This document shows positions 46,790-53,367 of a DNA stretch of 64,000 bases, piece after piece (position 1 is the first letter of the stretch; the number at the start of each line of letters is the position of its first letter). A model generated the notes under the pieces. It searched no databases, was not told where the DNA came from, and saw only the letters and a program-made list of their open reading frames with translations. Both the position numbers and the translations under genes were made by a program. The stretch comes from Aristaeella hokkaidonensis (lineage in GTDB: Bacteria; Bacillota; Clostridia; Christensenellales; Aristaeellaceae): the NCBI RefSeq assembly GCF_018128945.1, contig NZ_CP068393.1:1736001-1800000 (forward strand), given 5' to 3'.

Positions 46790-47299
46790 TTATTCAGGCC
46801 TGTCCATTTCAAGCTCCAGGCATTTCCAGGCTTCGTTCCCAAAGTGATAGTATTCCGTTTCTCCGGTATCCTTATCCCGGAATCCGACAGCCCGGTAGCA
46901 CCGGTATGCCGGCTCGTTGTTTTCAAAAACACCCAGGGTGATCCTGTCCGCCTTCAAAATATCGAAAGCATACCGGATAGCCAGCTGAAGCATTTCCCTG
47001 CCGTATCCGTATCCGCGCTTCCCGTCGTCCACGATCACAAAGCCGAACCGGAGAATGGTTTTCTTTTCATCCGTGAATCGCATGATCAGATGTCCCGCCA
47101 CGCCGGTCTCATCGAAGGCTGTCATTTCATAAAAGGAGTCCGAATCAGCCATCCTGTCATAGTGCCGGTTCAGGTCCTCCGCTGTAATCGGATAGGACTC
47201 AAACCGGTCCGCGCTCCATTTCCGGAACATGGTTTCGTCCCCGATCCAGGAAACAATCGTTTGTGCGTCACAGGCCTTGTAAGGTCTCAGTCTCAGCAT
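46790..47299 (-). CDS. GNAT-family N-acetyltransferase, RimJ-like
   Basis: A 169-residue GNAT beginning MLRLRPYKACDAQTIVSWIG, with FVIVDDGKRGYGYGREMLQL as the acetyl-CoA loop and VFENNEPAYRCYRAVGF at the C-terminus. The start at 47299 has AAGGG upstream; the frame extends to 47350 but would overlap the preceding gene. Confidence 0.88.
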   Translation of the reverse strand: MLRLRPYKACDAQTIVSWIGDETMFRKWSADRFESYPITAEDLNRHYDRMADSDSFYEMTAFDETGVAGHLIMRFTDEKKTILRFGFVIVDDGKRGYGYGREMLQLAIRYAFDILKADRITLGVFENNEPAYRCYRAVGFRDKDTGETEYYHFGNEAWKCLELEMDRPE

Positions 47300-47309
47300 A
47301 TATTTCCCT

Positions 47310-47663
47310 TCAGGGTTCCTTCCAGAACCCGCCTTTATGGAAATTCTCATTCCCCAGCGGCTTTGCGGTCAGCCTGAACATCACGCAGCCGTCCGGGCAC
47401 ACAATCGTTTTGGTATATTTGCTGTCTCCGCCCAGGTTCTCCAGGTCTCCGCCGCTGCGCACAGCCTCCATCAGCGGATAGAGAATCATCATCGTCTTGG
47501 AGCAGATTCCCTGTCCGTCCTGGTTCACCGGGCAGCCGTAGGTGCAGGTGTATTTGTCGCCAGGTTCTTCCCCGTTCCGGCAGTAGCGTTCCGTATGATC
47601 TCCCCGCAGGAATCCTGTCACTTCAACCGTGAACTCATATTCCTCGTCATACCACTTTTTCAT
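47310..47663 (-). CDS. TIGR04076 family protein
   Basis: A 117-residue cysteine-containing protein of the TIGR04076 type (EFTVEV.G...C, YGCPVNQDGQGICSKTMMILYPLM, VCPDGCVMFRL). Five cysteines suggest metal or cluster binding. Function unknown. First gene after the internal promoter at 47716. Confidence 0.75.
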   Translation of the reverse strand: MKKWYDEEYEFTVEVTGFLRGDHTERYCRNGEEPGDKYTCTYGCPVNQDGQGICSKTMMILYPLMEAVRSGGDLENLGGDSKYTKTIVCPDGCVMFRLTAKPLGNENFHKGGFWKEP

Positions 47664-47766: not shown

Positions 47767-48549
47767 TCAGTTTTTCCGGAGGATATCCAGGGTATGATGG
47801 GATGCCCCGATCAGATCCTGCCGTTCGCAGATTGCGAAGTGGTACTCCAGCCATTTCCTGAAGGTCTCATCGTCCATTTCGTCAACCATCGCCCTTTGGT
47901 AATTGGTCGCGCCGTCCGTGGCAATCAGCTTCACCCGTTCCACCGGTATTTCAGCGTCCAGCGAAGCAATCTCCTCTGTCCTGATCAGGTCGAATACTTC
48001 CGCCGGGTCGCTGCCCAGGTGCCAGTCCGGCGAAAGCATGTTCCGCTCCAGCAGGTCCTGCACATGTTTGGATCCGAACGCGTAATTGATCACCGTCGGC
48101 TCGTTCATACAGTAAGCTGCCAGGATATATCCGCCCGGTTTCGTCACCCGGACCGCTTCCCTTAACGCCCGGAGTTTATCCTCCCGGGTATACAGGTGAT
48201 ACATCGGTCCCAGCAGCATAGTTAAGTCAAAGGCGTTGTCCGGCAGGAAGGACAGGTCCAGCACATTCCCCTGCAGGGCCCGGATCGGTTCCGTTCCGTC
48301 CAGCTTTGATTTCAGCACTTCCAGGTTGTGTTTCACCAGTTCCACGGCAGTCATCCGGTAGTCTTCCTTCGCCAGGGTCACGCTGTATCTTCCTGTTCCC
48401 GCTCCGACCTCCAGGATGGAGGGATCGTCCATCCCGTCTATACATTCATGAATGTATTTCATGGTGGTCAGGTACTCTACCTGGCCGTGCCGGGAAAGGA
48501 GCCGGTTTTCTTCATCACAGACACTGTAGAATTCATCCAGATAATTCAT
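47767..48549 (-). CDS. class I SAM-dependent methyltransferase
   Basis: A 260-residue methyltransferase: motif I ILEVGAGTGRYSVTLA, LSFLPDNAFDLTMLLGPMYH in the motif II-III region, and a C-terminal helical cap. The LGPMYHL segment is shared with the other methyltransferase at 49077. Overlaps the upstream GNAT by 4 nt. Confidence 0.9.
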   Translation of the reverse strand: MNYLDEFYSVCDEENRLLSRHGQVEYLTTMKYIHECIDGMDDPSILEVGAGTGRYSVTLAKEDYRMTAVELVKHNLEVLKSKLDGTEPIRALQGNVLDLSFLPDNAFDLTMLLGPMYHLYTREDKLRALREAVRVTKPGGYILAAYCMNEPTVINYAFGSKHVQDLLERNMLSPDWHLGSDPAEVFDLIRTEEIASLDAEIPVERVKLIATDGATNYQRAMVDEMDDETFRKWLEYHFAICERQDLIGASHHTLDILRKN

Positions 48550-49064
48550 CGGAACAACCTCCTGTATTCTTCACCCGGATAGCTGCTGCTTCCGTCCAGC
48601 TTGGTCAGGATCACGTCTTTTTCATAGGTCATGCCCAGCTTTTCCATCACCCGGCGGCTTCGGTTGTTTTCCCTGGCAAACGTTCCCCGGATTCCCCGGA
48701 CATCCCTCTGGCTCCGGACCAGTTCCAGTACCGCCCGGATCATTTCCGCAGCATATCCGTTTCCCCACTGATCTTTCCGCAGGTTGTACCCGATCGTCCA
48801 GAGGTCCTCTTCTTCCCAGTAATACAGGCCGCCGCTTCCGATCAGATCTCCGGTTTCTTTCAGCACGATGCCCGCGTCATAATCGTCCGGACTGTCCGGA
48901 TCCAGTGTCTCCAGCCACGCTTTCACGTCCTCCGCCTTCGTGTATACGGGATAAACCATATAGCGCGCCACGTCCGGATCCCCGCACCATTTGAATACTT
49001 CCCGGTAATCATCCGGGGTCAGGTTCCGCAGGATCAGCCGTTCCGTCTCCAGGTTAATGTTCAT
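48546..49064 (-). CDS. GNAT-family N-acetyltransferase, RimJ/RimL type
   Basis: A 172-residue GNAT: ERLILRNLTPDDYREVFKW at the N-terminus, YNLRKDQWGNGYAAEMIRAV as CoA loop, and ARENNRSRRVMEKLGM. Acts on N-terminal residues or small amines in its family. AAGGAG upstream. Confidence 0.9.
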   Translation of the reverse strand: MNINLETERLILRNLTPDDYREVFKWCGDPDVARYMVYPVYTKAEDVKAWLETLDPDSPDDYDAGIVLKETGDLIGSGGLYYWEEEDLWTIGYNLRKDQWGNGYAAEMIRAVLELVRSQRDVRGIRGTFARENNRSRRVMEKLGMTYEKDVILTKLDGSSSYPGEEYRRLFR

Positions 49065-49076
49065 CTTCTTCTCTCC

Positions 49077-49889
49077 TTATGCTTCCTTCCGGGACACAAT
49101 CATCAGGTGCTCCGAATGTGCCAGGTACTCTTCCTTCTCGCAGAACCGCAGTGCGTAGTCGCACCAGGCTTTCCTGATCTTCCTCGGGCTCTTGCTGAGC
49201 ACCCGCTTGTAGGGTGCCAGGATTCCTTCCTGGCTGAAAGCGGTCTCTGTCTTCAGGCCGGGGATGGAAGCCAGCAGCTTCTTCGCGTCTTCGACGGTGA
49301 TCATATACGCGTAGGTGAAGGACTCTCCGGAAAAACTTTCCCCCTTTGCGGCCAGTTCATAGAATTCCTCTTCTTCCGGCATCAGGATCGTTTCCTGGAT
49401 TTCCCGCATGCCGTAGACAACCCCGCCGAAGGTCAGGATAAAGCTGCTGAACAGGTATCCGCCGGGTTTCAGGACCCGTTTAGCTTCCTGGATGGCCCGG
49501 ATCCTGCTTTCCTCTGTCAGCAGGTGATACAGCGGTCCCATCAGGAAAACCGTATCAAAGGAATTGTCAGGGAACCGGGACAGATCCGTTGCGTCTCCCT
49601 GCACCGCCGTGATCTTCACCCCGTACTGCCGTGCTTTCTTTTTTGCGAAGCGCACGTTCTCGTCGCTCAGGTCCAGCAGCGTCATCGTATGCCCCTGCCT
49701 CGCGTAGTGGATGGAATACTGTCCCGGGCCTCCGCCGATATCCAGGATCCTGCTGCCGGGCTGGATATACCGGTCCATCATATGGGTCGTAATATACTTT
49801 TCATAAGGAGTCCTTTTCTGCAGTCGGTCCCATTCCTTCAGGGGATCCGCGTCATAATGGGAGCGGATCGCTTCTTTCTCTTCGCGCAT
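49077..49889 (-). CDS. class I SAM-dependent methyltransferase
   Basis: A 270-residue methyltransferase: ILDIGGGPGQYSIHYARQGH (motif I), LLDLSDENV, and LSRFPDNSFDTVFLMGPLYH. It begins SHYDADPLKEWDRL, an entry seen in small-molecule methyltransferases. The start at 49889 has AGGAGG at 8 nt; the ATG at 49907 overlaps the upstream gene. Confidence 0.9.
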   Translation of the reverse strand: MREEKEAIRSHYDADPLKEWDRLQKRTPYEKYITTHMMDRYIQPGSRILDIGGGPGQYSIHYARQGHTMTLLDLSDENVRFAKKKARQYGVKITAVQGDATDLSRFPDNSFDTVFLMGPLYHLLTEESRIRAIQEAKRVLKPGGYLFSSFILTFGGVVYGMREIQETILMPEEEEFYELAAKGESFSGESFTYAYMITVEDAKKLLASIPGLKTETAFSQEGILAPYKRVLSKSPRKIRKAWCDYALRFCEKEEYLAHSEHLMIVSRKEA

Positions 49890-49903
49890 TTTTCCATCCT
49901 CCT

Positions 49904-50452
49904 TCACAGTTCTTTATACATCAGGATCTCGTCGTGATAGCTTCCGTCGTCAAACTTCATCCCGTGATAATACCGGCCGCTTTCGATAAATCCGCATTTG
50001 CGGTACAGACCCTGCGCCCGGGTATTGTCCGCCACCACGATCAGTTCCATCAGCTCGTAGCCCATCTGCTTAGCCATCTCGATCAGCATATTGAGCATGG
50101 CCGTGCCCAGGCCCTGTTCGCAGTATTCCTCCAGCAGGCCTATCCCCATGGAACACCGGTGGCGGATCTTCCGTTTCTCCTGGTTACTGAATACGGAGCA
50201 GCTCCCGACTACCTTCCCGTCTGCTTCAGCCACGATCATCACAGCTTTCGGATCCTCCAGCGTCCTGTTGAGAAATGCCCGTTCGTCTTCCGCTTCTTTC
50301 CTGATCTCATCCGGATAGCGCGACATAAACTGGGTTTCGCCGGCGATCTGCTTCAGGTAGCTGATCATTTCCTCCGCTTTTTCCGGAACAGGCGGCTTCA
50401 GGATACAGTTTCGTCCGTCCTTCAGTGTGATGGTTTTTTCCGTGAAAATCAT
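49904..50452 (-). CDS. GNAT-family N-acetyltransferase behind an attenuator
   Basis: A 182-residue GNAT: VGSCSVFSNQEKRKIRHRCSM, acetyl-CoA loop GLLEEYCEQGLGTAMLNMLI, and VVADNTRAQGLYRKCGFIE. The ATG at 50452 follows AAGGAG and lies 30 nt after an intrinsic terminator preceded by a leader peptide. That arrangement is used by antibiotic-inducible resistance genes, so modification of a toxic amine is a reasonable guess. Substrate not readable. Confidence 0.9.
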   Translation of the reverse strand: MIFTEKTITLKDGRNCILKPPVPEKAEEMISYLKQIAGETQFMSRYPDEIRKEAEDERAFLNRTLEDPKAVMIVAEADGKVVGSCSVFSNQEKRKIRHRCSMGIGLLEEYCEQGLGTAMLNMLIEMAKQMGYELMELIVVADNTRAQGLYRKCGFIESGRYYHGMKFDDGSYHDEILMYKEL

Positions 50453-50481: not shown

Positions 50482-50677
50482 AAAAAGCCGCTTATCATCA
50501 GAGATAAGCGGCTTGATAAACCTTGTCCGGATCTGCCGGGGCTACGCTTCTCTGATGTGTGCTTGAGGGTACGTAAAATGAACGCGGACCAGCCATTCAA
50601 CGTTCGCGACGACAGCATAATTATTCAGTTCACACACGTACCGTTTCACAGAGAAGCGCTCCTTTCCGAAAAATATT
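50482..50677 (-). promoter_or_regulatory. ribosome-mediated attenuator, leader RNA
   Basis: The transcript from ~50677 contains four interacting segments: 1 (50649-50658, CGCTTCTCTG, between the leader ribosome binding site and its start codon), 2 (50545-50554, CAGAGAAGCG, last codons of the leader ORF), 3 (50500-50511, CGCTTATCTCTG, 5' arm and loop of the terminator) and 4 (50486-50497). 1:2 is a perfect 10-bp pair; 2:3 is the same 10 bp with a 2-nt bulge; 3:4 is a 12-bp terminator stem followed by TTTTTAG. A ribosome held on segment 1 would free 2 to pair with 3 and allow read-through. An additional pair, 50568-50574 with 50636-50642, lies inside 1:2. Confidence 0.8.
50542..50649 (-). CDS. 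35-residue leader peptide of the attenuator
   Basis: A GTG start at 50649 lies 9 nt after AAAGGAG (50659-50665). The frame begins MKRYVCELNNYAVV and ends ..AHIREA before TAG at 50542-50544. Its first codons overlap attenuator segment 1 and its last four codons are segment 2. No protein function is expected; translation of it is the signal. It contains no run of one amino-acid codon that would mark an amino-acid biosynthesis attenuator. Confidence 0.72.
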   Translation of the reverse strand: MKRYVCELNNYAVVANVEWLVRVHFTYPQAHIREA

Positions 50678-50683
50678 GGGATG

Positions 50684-50713
50684 ACTATACTACGGAACAA
50701 ACGCCCGTGTCAA
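50684..50713 (-). promoter_or_regulatory. promoter of the attenuator and GNAT operon
   Basis: TTGACA (50708-50713), 18 nt, TATAGT (50684-50689) on the minus strand. Confidence 0.75.
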
Positions 50714-50730: not shown

Positions 50731-53367
50731 TTATTTGCGGTTTTTCCGCATCGTCCAGCGCCGGATCGCCTTTTCAATCTCCACAATCGGGATCACGACC
50801 AGGGCCAGCGCCATCGCTGTCAGGTATTCAGCAAGCGTGATCGGCGTAAAGGAGAAAGCCTTGTTCAGGAACGGCACAAAGATGACCGCGGCTGTAATCA
50901 GCAGCGAGAAGGCCAGCGTTCCCCACAGCCACATGTTCTGCTTCTTCAGGCTGAACAAGGAAGCATGCCTGGACCGCATATTGAAGGAATGGAAAATTTC
51001 GACCATGCTCAGCGTCAGGAAAGCCATGGTCATGCCGGCCGGGGATTCCGCAATCCCCCAGGCTCCGCTTTCCATCCGGTGTCCGATAAAGTAGCTGAAC
51101 ACTGTCACGGCGGCGATAATCAGCCCCTGGAAGGCGATACCGAAGCCCAGCCCGTCTGCGAAGATGCTTTCCTTCCGGTGCCGCGGCGGACGCTGCATCA
51201 CGTCTTTTTCCGCATCCTCCATGCCCAGCGCGATTGCCGGCAGCGTATCTGTGATCAGGTTGATCCACAGGATGTGGACCGGTTTGAGAATGGTAAAGCC
51301 CATCAGCGTGGCGGAAAACACCGCCAGCACCTCCGCCAGGTTGGCGGACAGCAGGAACTGGATGGCCTTGCGGATGTTGTCATAGATCCGGCGGCCTTCG
51401 CCGACCGCGGAAACGATGGTGGCAAAGTTGTCATCCGTCAGGATCATATCCGCCACGGACTTGGTCACGTCGGTACCGGTAATGCCCATGCCCACGCCGA
51501 TATCCGCGCTCTTGATGGAGGGGGCGTCATTGACACCGTCTCCGGTCATGGCTGTCACCATGCCCAGCGCCTTCCAGGCGTTCACGATGCGCACCTTATT
51601 CTCCGGCTGCACCCTGGCATAGACGGAATAGCGCCTTACGTCATGCGCAAACACTTCGTCCGGGATCGCGTCCAGTTCCGCGCCGGTGATCGCCATCTGG
51701 CCGGGCTGCAGGATGCCCAGTTCCCGGGCAATAGCCGTAGCTGTATCCTTGTGGTCGCCGGTGATCATGATGGGCCGGATGCCGGCGCTGCGGCACTTTT
51801 GTATGGCGTCCTTCACTTCGGGCCGGATGGGATCGATCATGCCGCACATGCCGATCCAGGTCAGATCCTGCTCCAGATCCTCAGCGGCGTTGGAAGCAGG
51901 ACGCTCGTCATAAATCCGCTGGGCAGCGCCCAGCACCCGCAGGGCCTGGTCCGCCATCCCTTTGTTTTCAGCAAGAATCTGCTCCCGCTGTTCTTTGGTG
52001 ATCGGAACCGCCTGGCCGCCCTGCCAGATCTTCGTACAGCGGCGCAGCACCTCATCCGGGGCGCCCTTGGTAAATTGAATAAATCCATGCCCGGCACCCA
52101 TCCGGTGCAGGGTGGTCATCATTTTGCGCAGAGAATCAAAGGGGGCTTCATCCACCCGCGGCAGGTCTGCCGCCAGCTCTTCCTTGGGCATGCCGTTCCG
52201 GTTGGCGTCGTTGACCAGCGCGCATTCGGTCGCTTCGCCCACAGCCTCCCCTTCCTCCAGCTCCGCGTCGGAACACAGGGCCATGGCGGACATCAGCAGT
52301 TTCTCATCGTCAGTCACTTTCCGGACCACGGTCATTTTGTTCTGGGTCAGGGTACCGGTTTTATCCGAGCAGATAATCTGGGTGCAGCCCAGGGTCTCCA
52401 CAGCCGTCAGCTTCCGGATAATGGCATGGTTCTTGCTCATCTTGGTCACGCCGATGGAGAGCAGCACCGTTACCACCGCGCTCAGGCCTTCCGGAATGGC
52501 CGCCACGGCCAGGGAAACCGCGATCATGAAGGTGTCCAGGACGGCCTTTCCGCCGTTCCGCACCAGGTTGACGATAAACACAAAGGCGCAGATCACCAGG
52601 ATCATGGCGGACAGTTTCCGGGACAGTTCCTTCAGCTTGATCTGCAGGGGTGTCTCCTCGTCCTTCGCGTTGGTCAGGGCATCCGCAATGGCGCCCATTT
52701 CCGTATCCATGCCTGTGCCGGTCACAACGGCGTGTCCCCGTCCATAGGTGACGATGGAGCCCATGTACACCATGTTCTTCCGGTCGCCCAGGGAGACTTC
52801 CCCGTTCTCGGCGGCTGCCAGCGCTTCGCTCTGCTTCTCCACATCCGTGGATTCACCGGTCAGGGCCGCTTCCTGCGTCTTCATGGACGCGCATTCCACA
52901 ATCCGGGCGTCCGCGGGCACAGCATCCCCGGCCTCCAGGATCAGCATATCGCCCCGGACCACTTCGTCCGCGTGGATGGTTTTCAGGTGGCCGCCGCGGA
53001 TTACCTTCGCGGTAGCTGCCGCCACTTGCTGCAGCGCCTCAATTGCGGCCTCCGCCTTGCTCTCCTGGTAAACGCCCAGGCAGGCGTTGATCAGCACCAC
53101 CGCCAGGATGATGATGGTATCGGTCAGGCTCTCACCGGCATACAATGCCGTGATGGCGCTTACCACCGCAGCGATAATCAGGACGATGGTCATGGGATCC
53201 TTCAGTTCCCCGAGGAACTTCCTGATCAGGCTTTCCTTTTCGCCTTCCTTCAGCTTGTTGTGTCCATCCCGGACAAGCCGTACCGCAGCCTCTTCGTCGC
53301 TCAGGCCTTCCATGGAGGAACCCGCCTCTGCCAGTACAGCCTCTTTTTCCTCAAGATACGGTTTCAA
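50731..53367 (-). CDS. Ca2+-type P2 ATPase
   Basis: An 878-residue cation-translocating ATPase. N-terminal cation-ATPase domain, A-domain motif LTGES, PEGLSAV in helix M4 (calcium-pump type), phosphorylation motif SDKTGTLTQNKMT, hinge MTGDGVNDAPSIKSADIGVG and six C-terminal helices. Exports or sequesters Ca2+ (possibly Mn2+). The start is an unusual TTG at 53367 with GGAGGG 8 nt upstream; no ATG gives a full N-terminus. Confidence 0.93.
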   Translation of the reverse strand: MKPYLEEKEAVLAEAGSSMEGLSDEEAAVRLVRDGHNKLKEGEKESLIRKFLGELKDPMTIVLIIAAVVSAITALYAGESLTDTIIILAVVLINACLGVYQESKAEAAIEALQQVAAATAKVIRGGHLKTIHADEVVRGDMLILEAGDAVPADARIVECASMKTQEAALTGESTDVEKQSEALAAAENGEVSLGDRKNMVYMGSIVTYGRGHAVVTGTGMDTEMGAIADALTNAKDEETPLQIKLKELSRKLSAMILVICAFVFIVNLVRNGGKAVLDTFMIAVSLAVAAIPEGLSAVVTVLLSIGVTKMSKNHAIIRKLTAVETLGCTQIICSDKTGTLTQNKMTVVRKVTDDEKLLMSAMALCSDAELEEGEAVGEATECALVNDANRNGMPKEELAADLPRVDEAPFDSLRKMMTTLHRMGAGHGFIQFTKGAPDEVLRRCTKIWQGGQAVPITKEQREQILAENKGMADQALRVLGAAQRIYDERPASNAAEDLEQDLTWIGMCGMIDPIRPEVKDAIQKCRSAGIRPIMITGDHKDTATAIARELGILQPGQMAITGAELDAIPDEVFAHDVRRYSVYARVQPENKVRIVNAWKALGMVTAMTGDGVNDAPSIKSADIGVGMGITGTDVTKSVADMILTDDNFATIVSAVGEGRRIYDNIRKAIQFLLSANLAEVLAVFSATLMGFTILKPVHILWINLITDTLPAIALGMEDAEKDVMQRPPRHRKESIFADGLGFGIAFQGLIIAAVTVFSYFIGHRMESGAWGIAESPAGMTMAFLTLSMVEIFHSFNMRSRHASLFSLKKQNMWLWGTLAFSLLITAAVIFVPFLNKAFSFTPITLAEYLTAMALALVVIPIVEIEKAIRRWTMRKNRK

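Follow-up and report, generated by a model that had tools for sequence, protein, structure and literature searches.

The leader of a GNAT/methyltransferase operon in Aristaeella hokkaidonensis is probably (about 78%) a transcription attenuator that senses ribosome position. It was found in a 64,000-nucleotide stretch of the genome, referred to here as the window. Its pairings are backed by sequence comparison, and its switching is predicted from folding. Judged by sequence, this genome contains at least seven such related switches, the present one included.

Anatomy of the window leader

All parts of the leader were located on the minus strand between 50713 and 50485, by direct reading and by scan:

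50684..50713 (-): sigma-70-type promoter TTGACA-18-TATAGT, 11/12 consensus matches (-35 TTGACA at 50713-50708, 18-nt spacer, -10 TATAGT at 50689-50684)
50659..50665 (-): Shine-Dalgarno (SD) sequence AAAGGAG of the uORF, read directly and from alignment A1
50542..50649 (-): uORF VKRYVCELNNYAVVANVEWLVRVHFTYPQAHIREA, GTG start at 50649, 35 codons, TAG stop
50649..50658 (-): segment 1, CGCTTCTCTG, 5' arm of the putative anti-antiterminator; it ends on the G of GTG
50584..50607 (-): uORF-internal hairpin GCGAAC...GTCCGC (codons AN...VR), two-sided changes in 6/6 pairs
50545..50554 (-): segment 2, CAGAGAAGCG, in the final uORF codons; predicted partner of segment 1 in the off state and of segment 3 in the on state
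50499..50510 (-): segment 3, CGCTTATCTCTG, inside the terminator's 5' arm and loop
50485..50514 (-): intrinsic terminator stem-loop of 12 bp followed by a T run, found by scan; helix paired in 98.9% of alignment cells

A preliminary description of this DNA had noted a near-consensus promoter and an AAAGGAG motif plus GTG opening a 35-codon ORF, and both were confirmed. It also described segment 2 as pairing perfectly with two partners. This was true of segment 1, as the two segments are exact 10-base complements, but in the 2:3 pairing two 5-bp stretches flank a 2-nt bulge (AU) of segment 3, and AT/AT lengthens the duplex. Segment 1, whose ten bases run from just past the SD through the G of GTG, does lie just upstream of the start codon as described, but overlaps its first base. 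The GNAT ATG, at 50452, is 32 nt past the terminator stem.

The promoter of the window leader was the top-scoring of 10 promoter-like sites in a 10 kb scan, and promoters with at least 10/12 matches were present in 77/81 leaders that had enough upstream sequence (best site within 75 nt). Most columns of the uORF SD were nearly invariant in alignment A1. The window leader folded better than 200/200 dinucleotide shuffles (z -3.73), and the bases of the inner hairpin were partly engaged in another, longer hairpin in its own free minimum-energy fold. Generic scans are weak evidence by themselves (11 terminators found vs 10.1 expected; 10 promoters vs 6.2), and the claim therefore rests on comparative evidence.

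Two observations concern the surroundings. The stretch from the -10 element to the SD (50680-50659, minus strand), containing CCAAT, a T run and CGGAAAGGAG, was similar across leaders and could fold into a small hairpin reaching the SD. Directly upstream of the leader is a calcium-type P-type ATPase gene (50731-53367, minus strand); similar sequence was seen by eye ahead of leaders L009-L013, so the neighbourhood of the window copy is conserved.

A multi-copy leader family with covarying segments

A DNA search detected three other places in the window's own genome, with four partial matches between them, and matched 20/100 genomes (own included), all of one genus. It yielded 26 distinct leaders, 23 of which were aligned (A1) after three near-duplicates were left out. 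A covariance model built from this alignment, R1, matched 26/45 genomes of the own genus, again including the own genome. We used 98 of the 99 whole-model rows, leaving out one in G010:C3 (21.5 bits) that was antisense to another match. Seven copies were present in the window's genome, and the maximum was nine, in G008. R1 had no match in 19/45 genomes of the genus. A second model, R2, built from 86 matches, matched weakly in two of these, G019 and G030, and a further weak R2 match was found in G006:C20.

Outside the genus, the family was sparse. At the family level R2 matched 11/150 genomes, of which five belong to the own genus and six do not, and credible copies outside the genus were present in three genomes of two sister genera. 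At the order level 6/297 genomes were matched, four of them of the own genus, with G240 among the order-level matches. At the class level 6/391 were matched, including the own genome, beyond which only two genomes of one genus, belonging to another family and order, had credible matches. In the other-order genus, R2 matched 8/39 genomes at 11 places, one of which (L205) was spurious, as it sits inside a long gene. Weak matches L181, L198, L199 and L200 were rejected after inspection, and L179 and L180 were judged doubtful and not accepted. These last two, in other genera of the family (G130 and G175), have SD-led uORFs of 43 and 41 codons, respectively, and a terminator, and the start of the following gene resembles a helix-turn-helix regulator by eye. 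One copy in the own genus, L105 (G024:C92:10008-10144), has segments 1 and 2, lacks a matching terminator or uORF stop, and is followed by a called gene on the opposite strand; it is apparently decayed or rearranged.

The whole window had no Rfam match at the gathering score (best sub-threshold match, E 0.22). The window leader had no match in plasmid or phage collections by distant blastn, the exact leader pattern was absent from the viral contigs searched, and a limited search of open-licence PMC literature found no description of the leader family. The family is thus absent from the catalogues searched, and its mechanism, as far as its sequence tells, is like that of the vmlR and bmrB attenuators.

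The preliminary description had proposed looking for conservation and covariation of the segments. Both were found, with the 98 covariance-model matches in the genus. In the 23-leader alignment, compensatory changes back all four helices, including the uORF-internal hairpin. The 2:3 helix was paired in 94.7% of cells, with two-sided changes in 3/10 pairs; the 1:2 helix in 82.6%, with 3/8; the mid-uORF hairpin in 92.8%, with 6/6; and the terminator helix in 98.9%, with 5/12. When partner columns were slid, pairing fell to 37-60%. The observed covariation score was reached by 0/500 shuffles and the 2:3 two-sided pair count by 2/500, a significance that is overstated because the leaders are related.

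Swapping segments among 77 distinct leaders (of 93) gave the same picture for each duplex. Cognate 2:3 duplexes had a mean of -14.6 kcal/mol vs -11.6 kcal/mol when swapped, and beat the mean swap in 68/77 leaders; for 1:2 the values were -15.2 vs -12.1 kcal/mol and 61/77. The 1:2 duplex was weak in several members (L094, -4.9; L109, -1.6 kcal/mol), and on sequence grounds segment 1 appears plainly less constrained than the other segments. Read from the alignment, the anti-antiterminator, antiterminator and terminator are mutually exclusive.

The many copies per genome and the conserved promoter could also reflect a dispersed promoter-terminator cassette, that is, mobile element debris without regulatory switching. 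We consider this extremely unlikely, because the segments coevolve within copies and the window leader is unmatched in plasmid or phage collections. Also against it, the first called gene was on the same strand in 95/98 rows, according to a simple codon-usage script; it lay within 60 nt in 72 of these 95, was opposite in one row, and was not called in two.

Predicted uORF translation and the position of the ribosome

A uORF of 27-39 codons was present in 93/98 family rows, and an SD-like motif in 93/95. These uORFs open just past the SD region and end before the terminator, mostly at segment 2. R1 demands no reading frame, and its 23 seed leaders were picked for having one. L151 is counted among the 93 uORFs, with a 5' half unlike the family, and L155, the sole R1 row of G006, is without a uORF. 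Seven rows (L091, L096, L105, L132, L151, L155 and L162) were left out of the frame, synonymy, masked-folding and composition tests, leaving 82 distinct uORFs of 91.

The other two frames were stop-free in just 15 and 19 of the 82 distinct leaders. Single-base codon changes were synonymous in 188/433 cases in frame vs 101/427 and 92/449 off frame, counted over 70 ungapped pairs of 80-99% identity that are not independent of one another. Interior gap lengths were also tried as a frame test and were uninformative, since all compared ORFs are multiples of three. No shared arrest motif was noticed in the uORF peptides, and both the peptides and the interior sequence diverge widely between branches.

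The residues AN..VR hardly vary in one branch. Because the codons are near-fixed as well (GCG for Ala in 30/30 leaders, GTC in 27/30) and L011 has both hairpin arms altered together (GTAAAC/GTTTAC), the RNA hairpin, not the peptide, seems to be under selection in this branch. At a guess, and by analogy with the vmlR pause hairpin (PMC9226507), the inner hairpin may time the polymerase. Across all 82 leaders, the uORF core showed no excess of structure over synonymous resamplings (mean z +0.24), which counts against a general hairpin requirement.

The hairpin, which in one branch has compensatory changes and codons that are almost fixed, is what would be expected if the leader were a structured RNA, either a riboswitch or a protein-binding leader, whose reading frame is incidental. 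However, a uORF of similar length with an SD in 93/98 rows and the in-frame synonymous bias argue for translation, the peptides and interior vary widely between branches, and no Rfam family was matched. We therefore regard a structured RNA as very unlikely.

We folded, in silico, the nascent RNA of the 82 leaders, ending before the 3' arm of the terminator, with a ribosome-sized mask at various positions. The numbers of leaders forming each pairing were as follows:

No ribosome: 2:3 in 29/82, 1:2 in 49/82
Mask at start codon: 2:3 in 55/82, 1:2 in 8/82
Mask at codon 3: 2:3 in 51/82, 1:2 in 10/82
Mask at codon 5: 2:3 in 46/82, 1:2 in 13/82
Mask at codon 7: 2:3 in 36/82, 1:2 in 38/82
Mask at codon 10: 2:3 in 29/82, 1:2 in 48/82
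Mask at codon 15: 2:3 in 28/82, 1:2 in 52/82
Mask at codon 20: 2:3 in 30/82, 1:2 in 39/82
Mask at codon 10 plus a second, queued ribosome on the start: 2:3 in 52/82, 1:2 in 11/82
Mask at stop codon: 2:3 in 0/82, 1:2 in 0/82

In the window leader, 11 bases of segment 2 were paired with segment 1 in the free RNA, and 11 with segment 3 when the mask was at codon 1 or 3 or a second ribosome was queued. The mask at codon 5 gave neither pairing, and masks at codons 7-20 left 1:2 intact. These two results speak against the switch, as does the preference for 2:3 in 29/82 leaders even in the absence of a ribosome. From this pattern, the anatomy would report ribosomes held near the start of the uORF. 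The logic put forward in the preliminary description, in which 1:2 plus 3:4 (off) excludes 2:3 (on), is borne out by the covariation, the cognate duplexes and the 2:3 pairing obtained with the start mask.

The switch may work as follows. With no ribosome, segment 1 would pair with segment 2, leaving segment 3 free, and the terminator (3:4) would halt RNA polymerase. A ribosome held at or just past the uORF start would mask segment 1; by folding, this would apply at codons 1-3 in the window leader and at about codons 1-5 in the family. A ribosome held further along the uORF could act alike if a second one were queued on the start. With segment 1 masked, segment 2 would pair with the new segment 3 before the 3' arm of the terminator is made, and the GNAT/methyltransferase operon would be transcribed. 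A ribosome that reached the stop codon would cover segment 2, so that the terminator would form again. In the full-length RNA at equilibrium, the terminator was kept in 70/82 leaders despite a ribosome at the start. Since the terminator is favoured at equilibrium, the on state must be kinetic, that is, set by the order of synthesis, on which trp attenuation likewise depends. Three steps of this scheme are inferred: the response of the polymerase, a translation-blocking compound as inducer, and its neutralisation by the enzymes.

Cargo genes, possibly tuned leaders and known attenuators

The window operon comprises the following genes:

49904..50452 (-): GNAT acetyltransferase, first gene of the operon (PF00583, E 5e-18)
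49077..49907 (-): class I SAM methyltransferase (PF13649, E 4e-24)
48546..49064 (-): GNAT acetyltransferase (PF13302)
47767..48549 (-): class I SAM methyltransferase (PF08241)
46790..47350 (-): third GNAT (PF13302), probably a later part of the same-strand run

The third GNAT is assigned to the operon as probable, from strand and gene order. The operon proteins belong to generic Pfam families, and their solved relatives are generic too. Six operon proteins were below the cut-off of every NCBIfam family among the matches listed (the best 25 families for the two methyltransferases). N-terminal lookalikes of the second and third genes have their own leaders elsewhere; for the GNAT at 48546..49064, proteins with a similar N-terminus directly follow leaders L079, L080 and L082.

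Across the family, 24/30 representative first or later genes had a Pfam match and six had none. The classes were class I methyltransferases, GNATs, GNAT-nitroreductase fusions, nitroreductase, phosphodiesterase/pyrophosphatases, a 2'-5' RNA ligase-type protein, HAD hydrolase, PNP-type phosphorylase, alpha/beta hydrolase and an RsgA GTPase with an APH-type kinase, with a PTS EIIC and a GGDEF protein as later genes. Many of these classes include drug-modifying enzymes.

Some individual copies are of interest. In the window's own genome, L154 (G000:C1:33493-33670) precedes the RsgA-type ribosome GTPase and APH-type kinase, and in related species, at L113 and L128, a methyltransferase-type gene separates the leader from the RsgA-like gene. 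L143 (G000:C1:2552127-2552297) has an unusual cargo: it lies 373 nt ahead of a 104-aa protein without a Pfam match, which is followed by a GGDEF protein.

The composition of the uORFs bears on whether the leader is an amino-acid attenuator, in which the uORF would signal that one charged tRNA is scarce, like the trp, thr or his leaders. Attenuators of the thr/trp type use 1:2, 2:3, 3:4 logic, which the family shares, and its Thr-rich branch resembles the thr leader. Upstream of the MDLHD methyltransferase, leaders are rich in Thr in the own genus and in the other-order genus alike, so in two orders; Thr accounts for 61/232 residues in 8 leader clusters (p 3.3e-13 against a background pooled from the leaders themselves; Bonferroni limit 1e-4). 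In the other-order genus, the methyltransferase is 72-78% identical and occurs in 5/85 genomes. One leader, L214, came from a protein search, in a genome that the model search did not cover; it has a promoter-like sequence, a Thr-rich uORF (8/24 Thr) and a terminator. In that genus, a weak match, L207 (G857:C39:23277-23454, 32.8 bits), also has a uORF of the same layout, also Thr-rich (6/31), and a terminator before a threonyl-tRNA synthetase (ThrRS) gene. Apart from these, only the cargo family of L089/L107, two Leu-rich leaders that form a single cluster, was beyond the limit. Met in one GNAT family (1.9e-4) and Val in the family of the window GNAT (2.7e-3) were below significance.

Against a family-wide amino-acid attenuator, the share of the top amino acid across the 82 leaders was 0.166 in frame and higher, 0.185, off frame, and on this basis the family-wide form was rejected. 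No regulatory codon is repeated in a run or significantly over-represented in the window uORF, and the Val value of its cargo family is over the limit of 1e-4. The window leader also differs from thr/trp attenuators in lacking regulatory codons and in having segment 1 at the uORF start. An amino-acid attenuator is therefore unlikely. The preliminary description had noted that no run of one regulatory codon is present, which is correct for the window leader, and had argued from this against an amino-acid attenuator. That argument stands for the window leader, but its MDLHD methyltransferase relatives are Thr-rich, so an amino-acid (aminoacyl-tRNA) signal may operate within the wider family.

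In folding of four Thr-rich leaders, 2:3 formed at most mask positions except the stop, which suggests that these leaders rely less on segment 1. Their composition indicates that the MDLHD methyltransferase branch may sense a specific tRNA shortage. As the window leader has no significant bias and the Thr branch does, the most fitting reading of the former is a start-proximal sensor that lacks codon specificity, and the family may contain codon-tuned members. Borrelidin inhibits ThrRS and halts ribosomes at Thr codons (PMC13410324).

More tentatively, the family could form a regulon whose sensors of blocked translation were duplicated and separately tuned, in which the uORF codons report the kind of arrest and the cargo neutralises the compound behind it, so that the toxin could be predicted from the codons. 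We hold this with low confidence, and equally its parts: that the signal would, for example, be threonyl-tRNA shortage under a ThrRS inhibitor for the MDLHD methyltransferase and leucine for L089/L107, and that cargo and switch could have moved together between orders while the leader sequence was rewritten.

We compared the leader with known uORF attenuators. In Bacillus subtilis, vmlR has a uORF in an anti-antiterminator hairpin, a pause hairpin, an antiterminator and an intrinsic terminator; its reported inducers are drugs that trap initiating ribosomes, and also ribosome assembly defects, and it tolerates uORF sequence variants (PMC9226507). The window family shares these elements (uORF, anti-antiterminator, further hairpin, antiterminator, intrinsic terminator), here known from sequence and folding. 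However, vmlR has a 3-codon uORF and a single ABC-F ATPase target, whereas the family has uORFs of 27-39 codons in many related copies, segment 2 inside the uORF, and cargo drawn mostly from small-molecule-modifying enzyme families. Clostridioides difficile cplR, induced by retapamulin and lincomycin (PMC10201436), similarly combines a 5' hairpin containing the uORF with a terminator hairpin, but its uORF has 3 codons (MRI), its terminator stem includes the SD of the main gene, and it serves a single ABC-F target.

bmrB-bmrCD of Bacillus subtilis has a 53-aa uORF and is induced by several 50S drugs (PMC4191407). It and the window family have a long uORF, three alternative stem-loops and ribosome-mediated transcription attenuation, predicted here by sequence and folding. 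In contrast, bmrB-bmrCD is a single locus with ABC transporter cargo and a terminator inside the bmrB coding sequence. The role of an anti-antiterminator was called unclear for bmrB, whereas covariation backs one here. tlrB (yxjB), in which RNA polymerase pausing times translation, also places attenuation ahead of a methyltransferase; unlike the window family, it has a 9-codon peptide with an RYR arrest motif, and is not known to have an antiterminator (PMC6851288). The toiL uORF of Escherichia coli answers several classes of translation stress (PMC12121999), but acts through RBS occlusion and Rho-dependent termination, whereas the window family has an intrinsic terminator. An attenuator survey is also available (PMC2965389).

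The window family may be induced by ribosome-targeting drugs as well. The multi-copy family, the conserved uORF hairpin in the window leader's branch and the Thr-rich relatives go beyond the preliminary description, because they are invisible from one window. In the papers compared, attenuators with a uORF ahead of resistance genes are treated locus by locus; in the present family, a single Clostridia genus uses one architecture for as many as nine loci in a genome. This recurrence suggests a shared alarm, in which held-up ribosomes turn on small-molecule-modifying enzymes. If this is true, the switch would flag enzymes that are unstudied and possibly detoxifying, and biased uORF codons would offer a guess at an enzyme's substrate. 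The family also makes testable whether a long uORF encoding an arbitrary peptide may sense ribosome position only.
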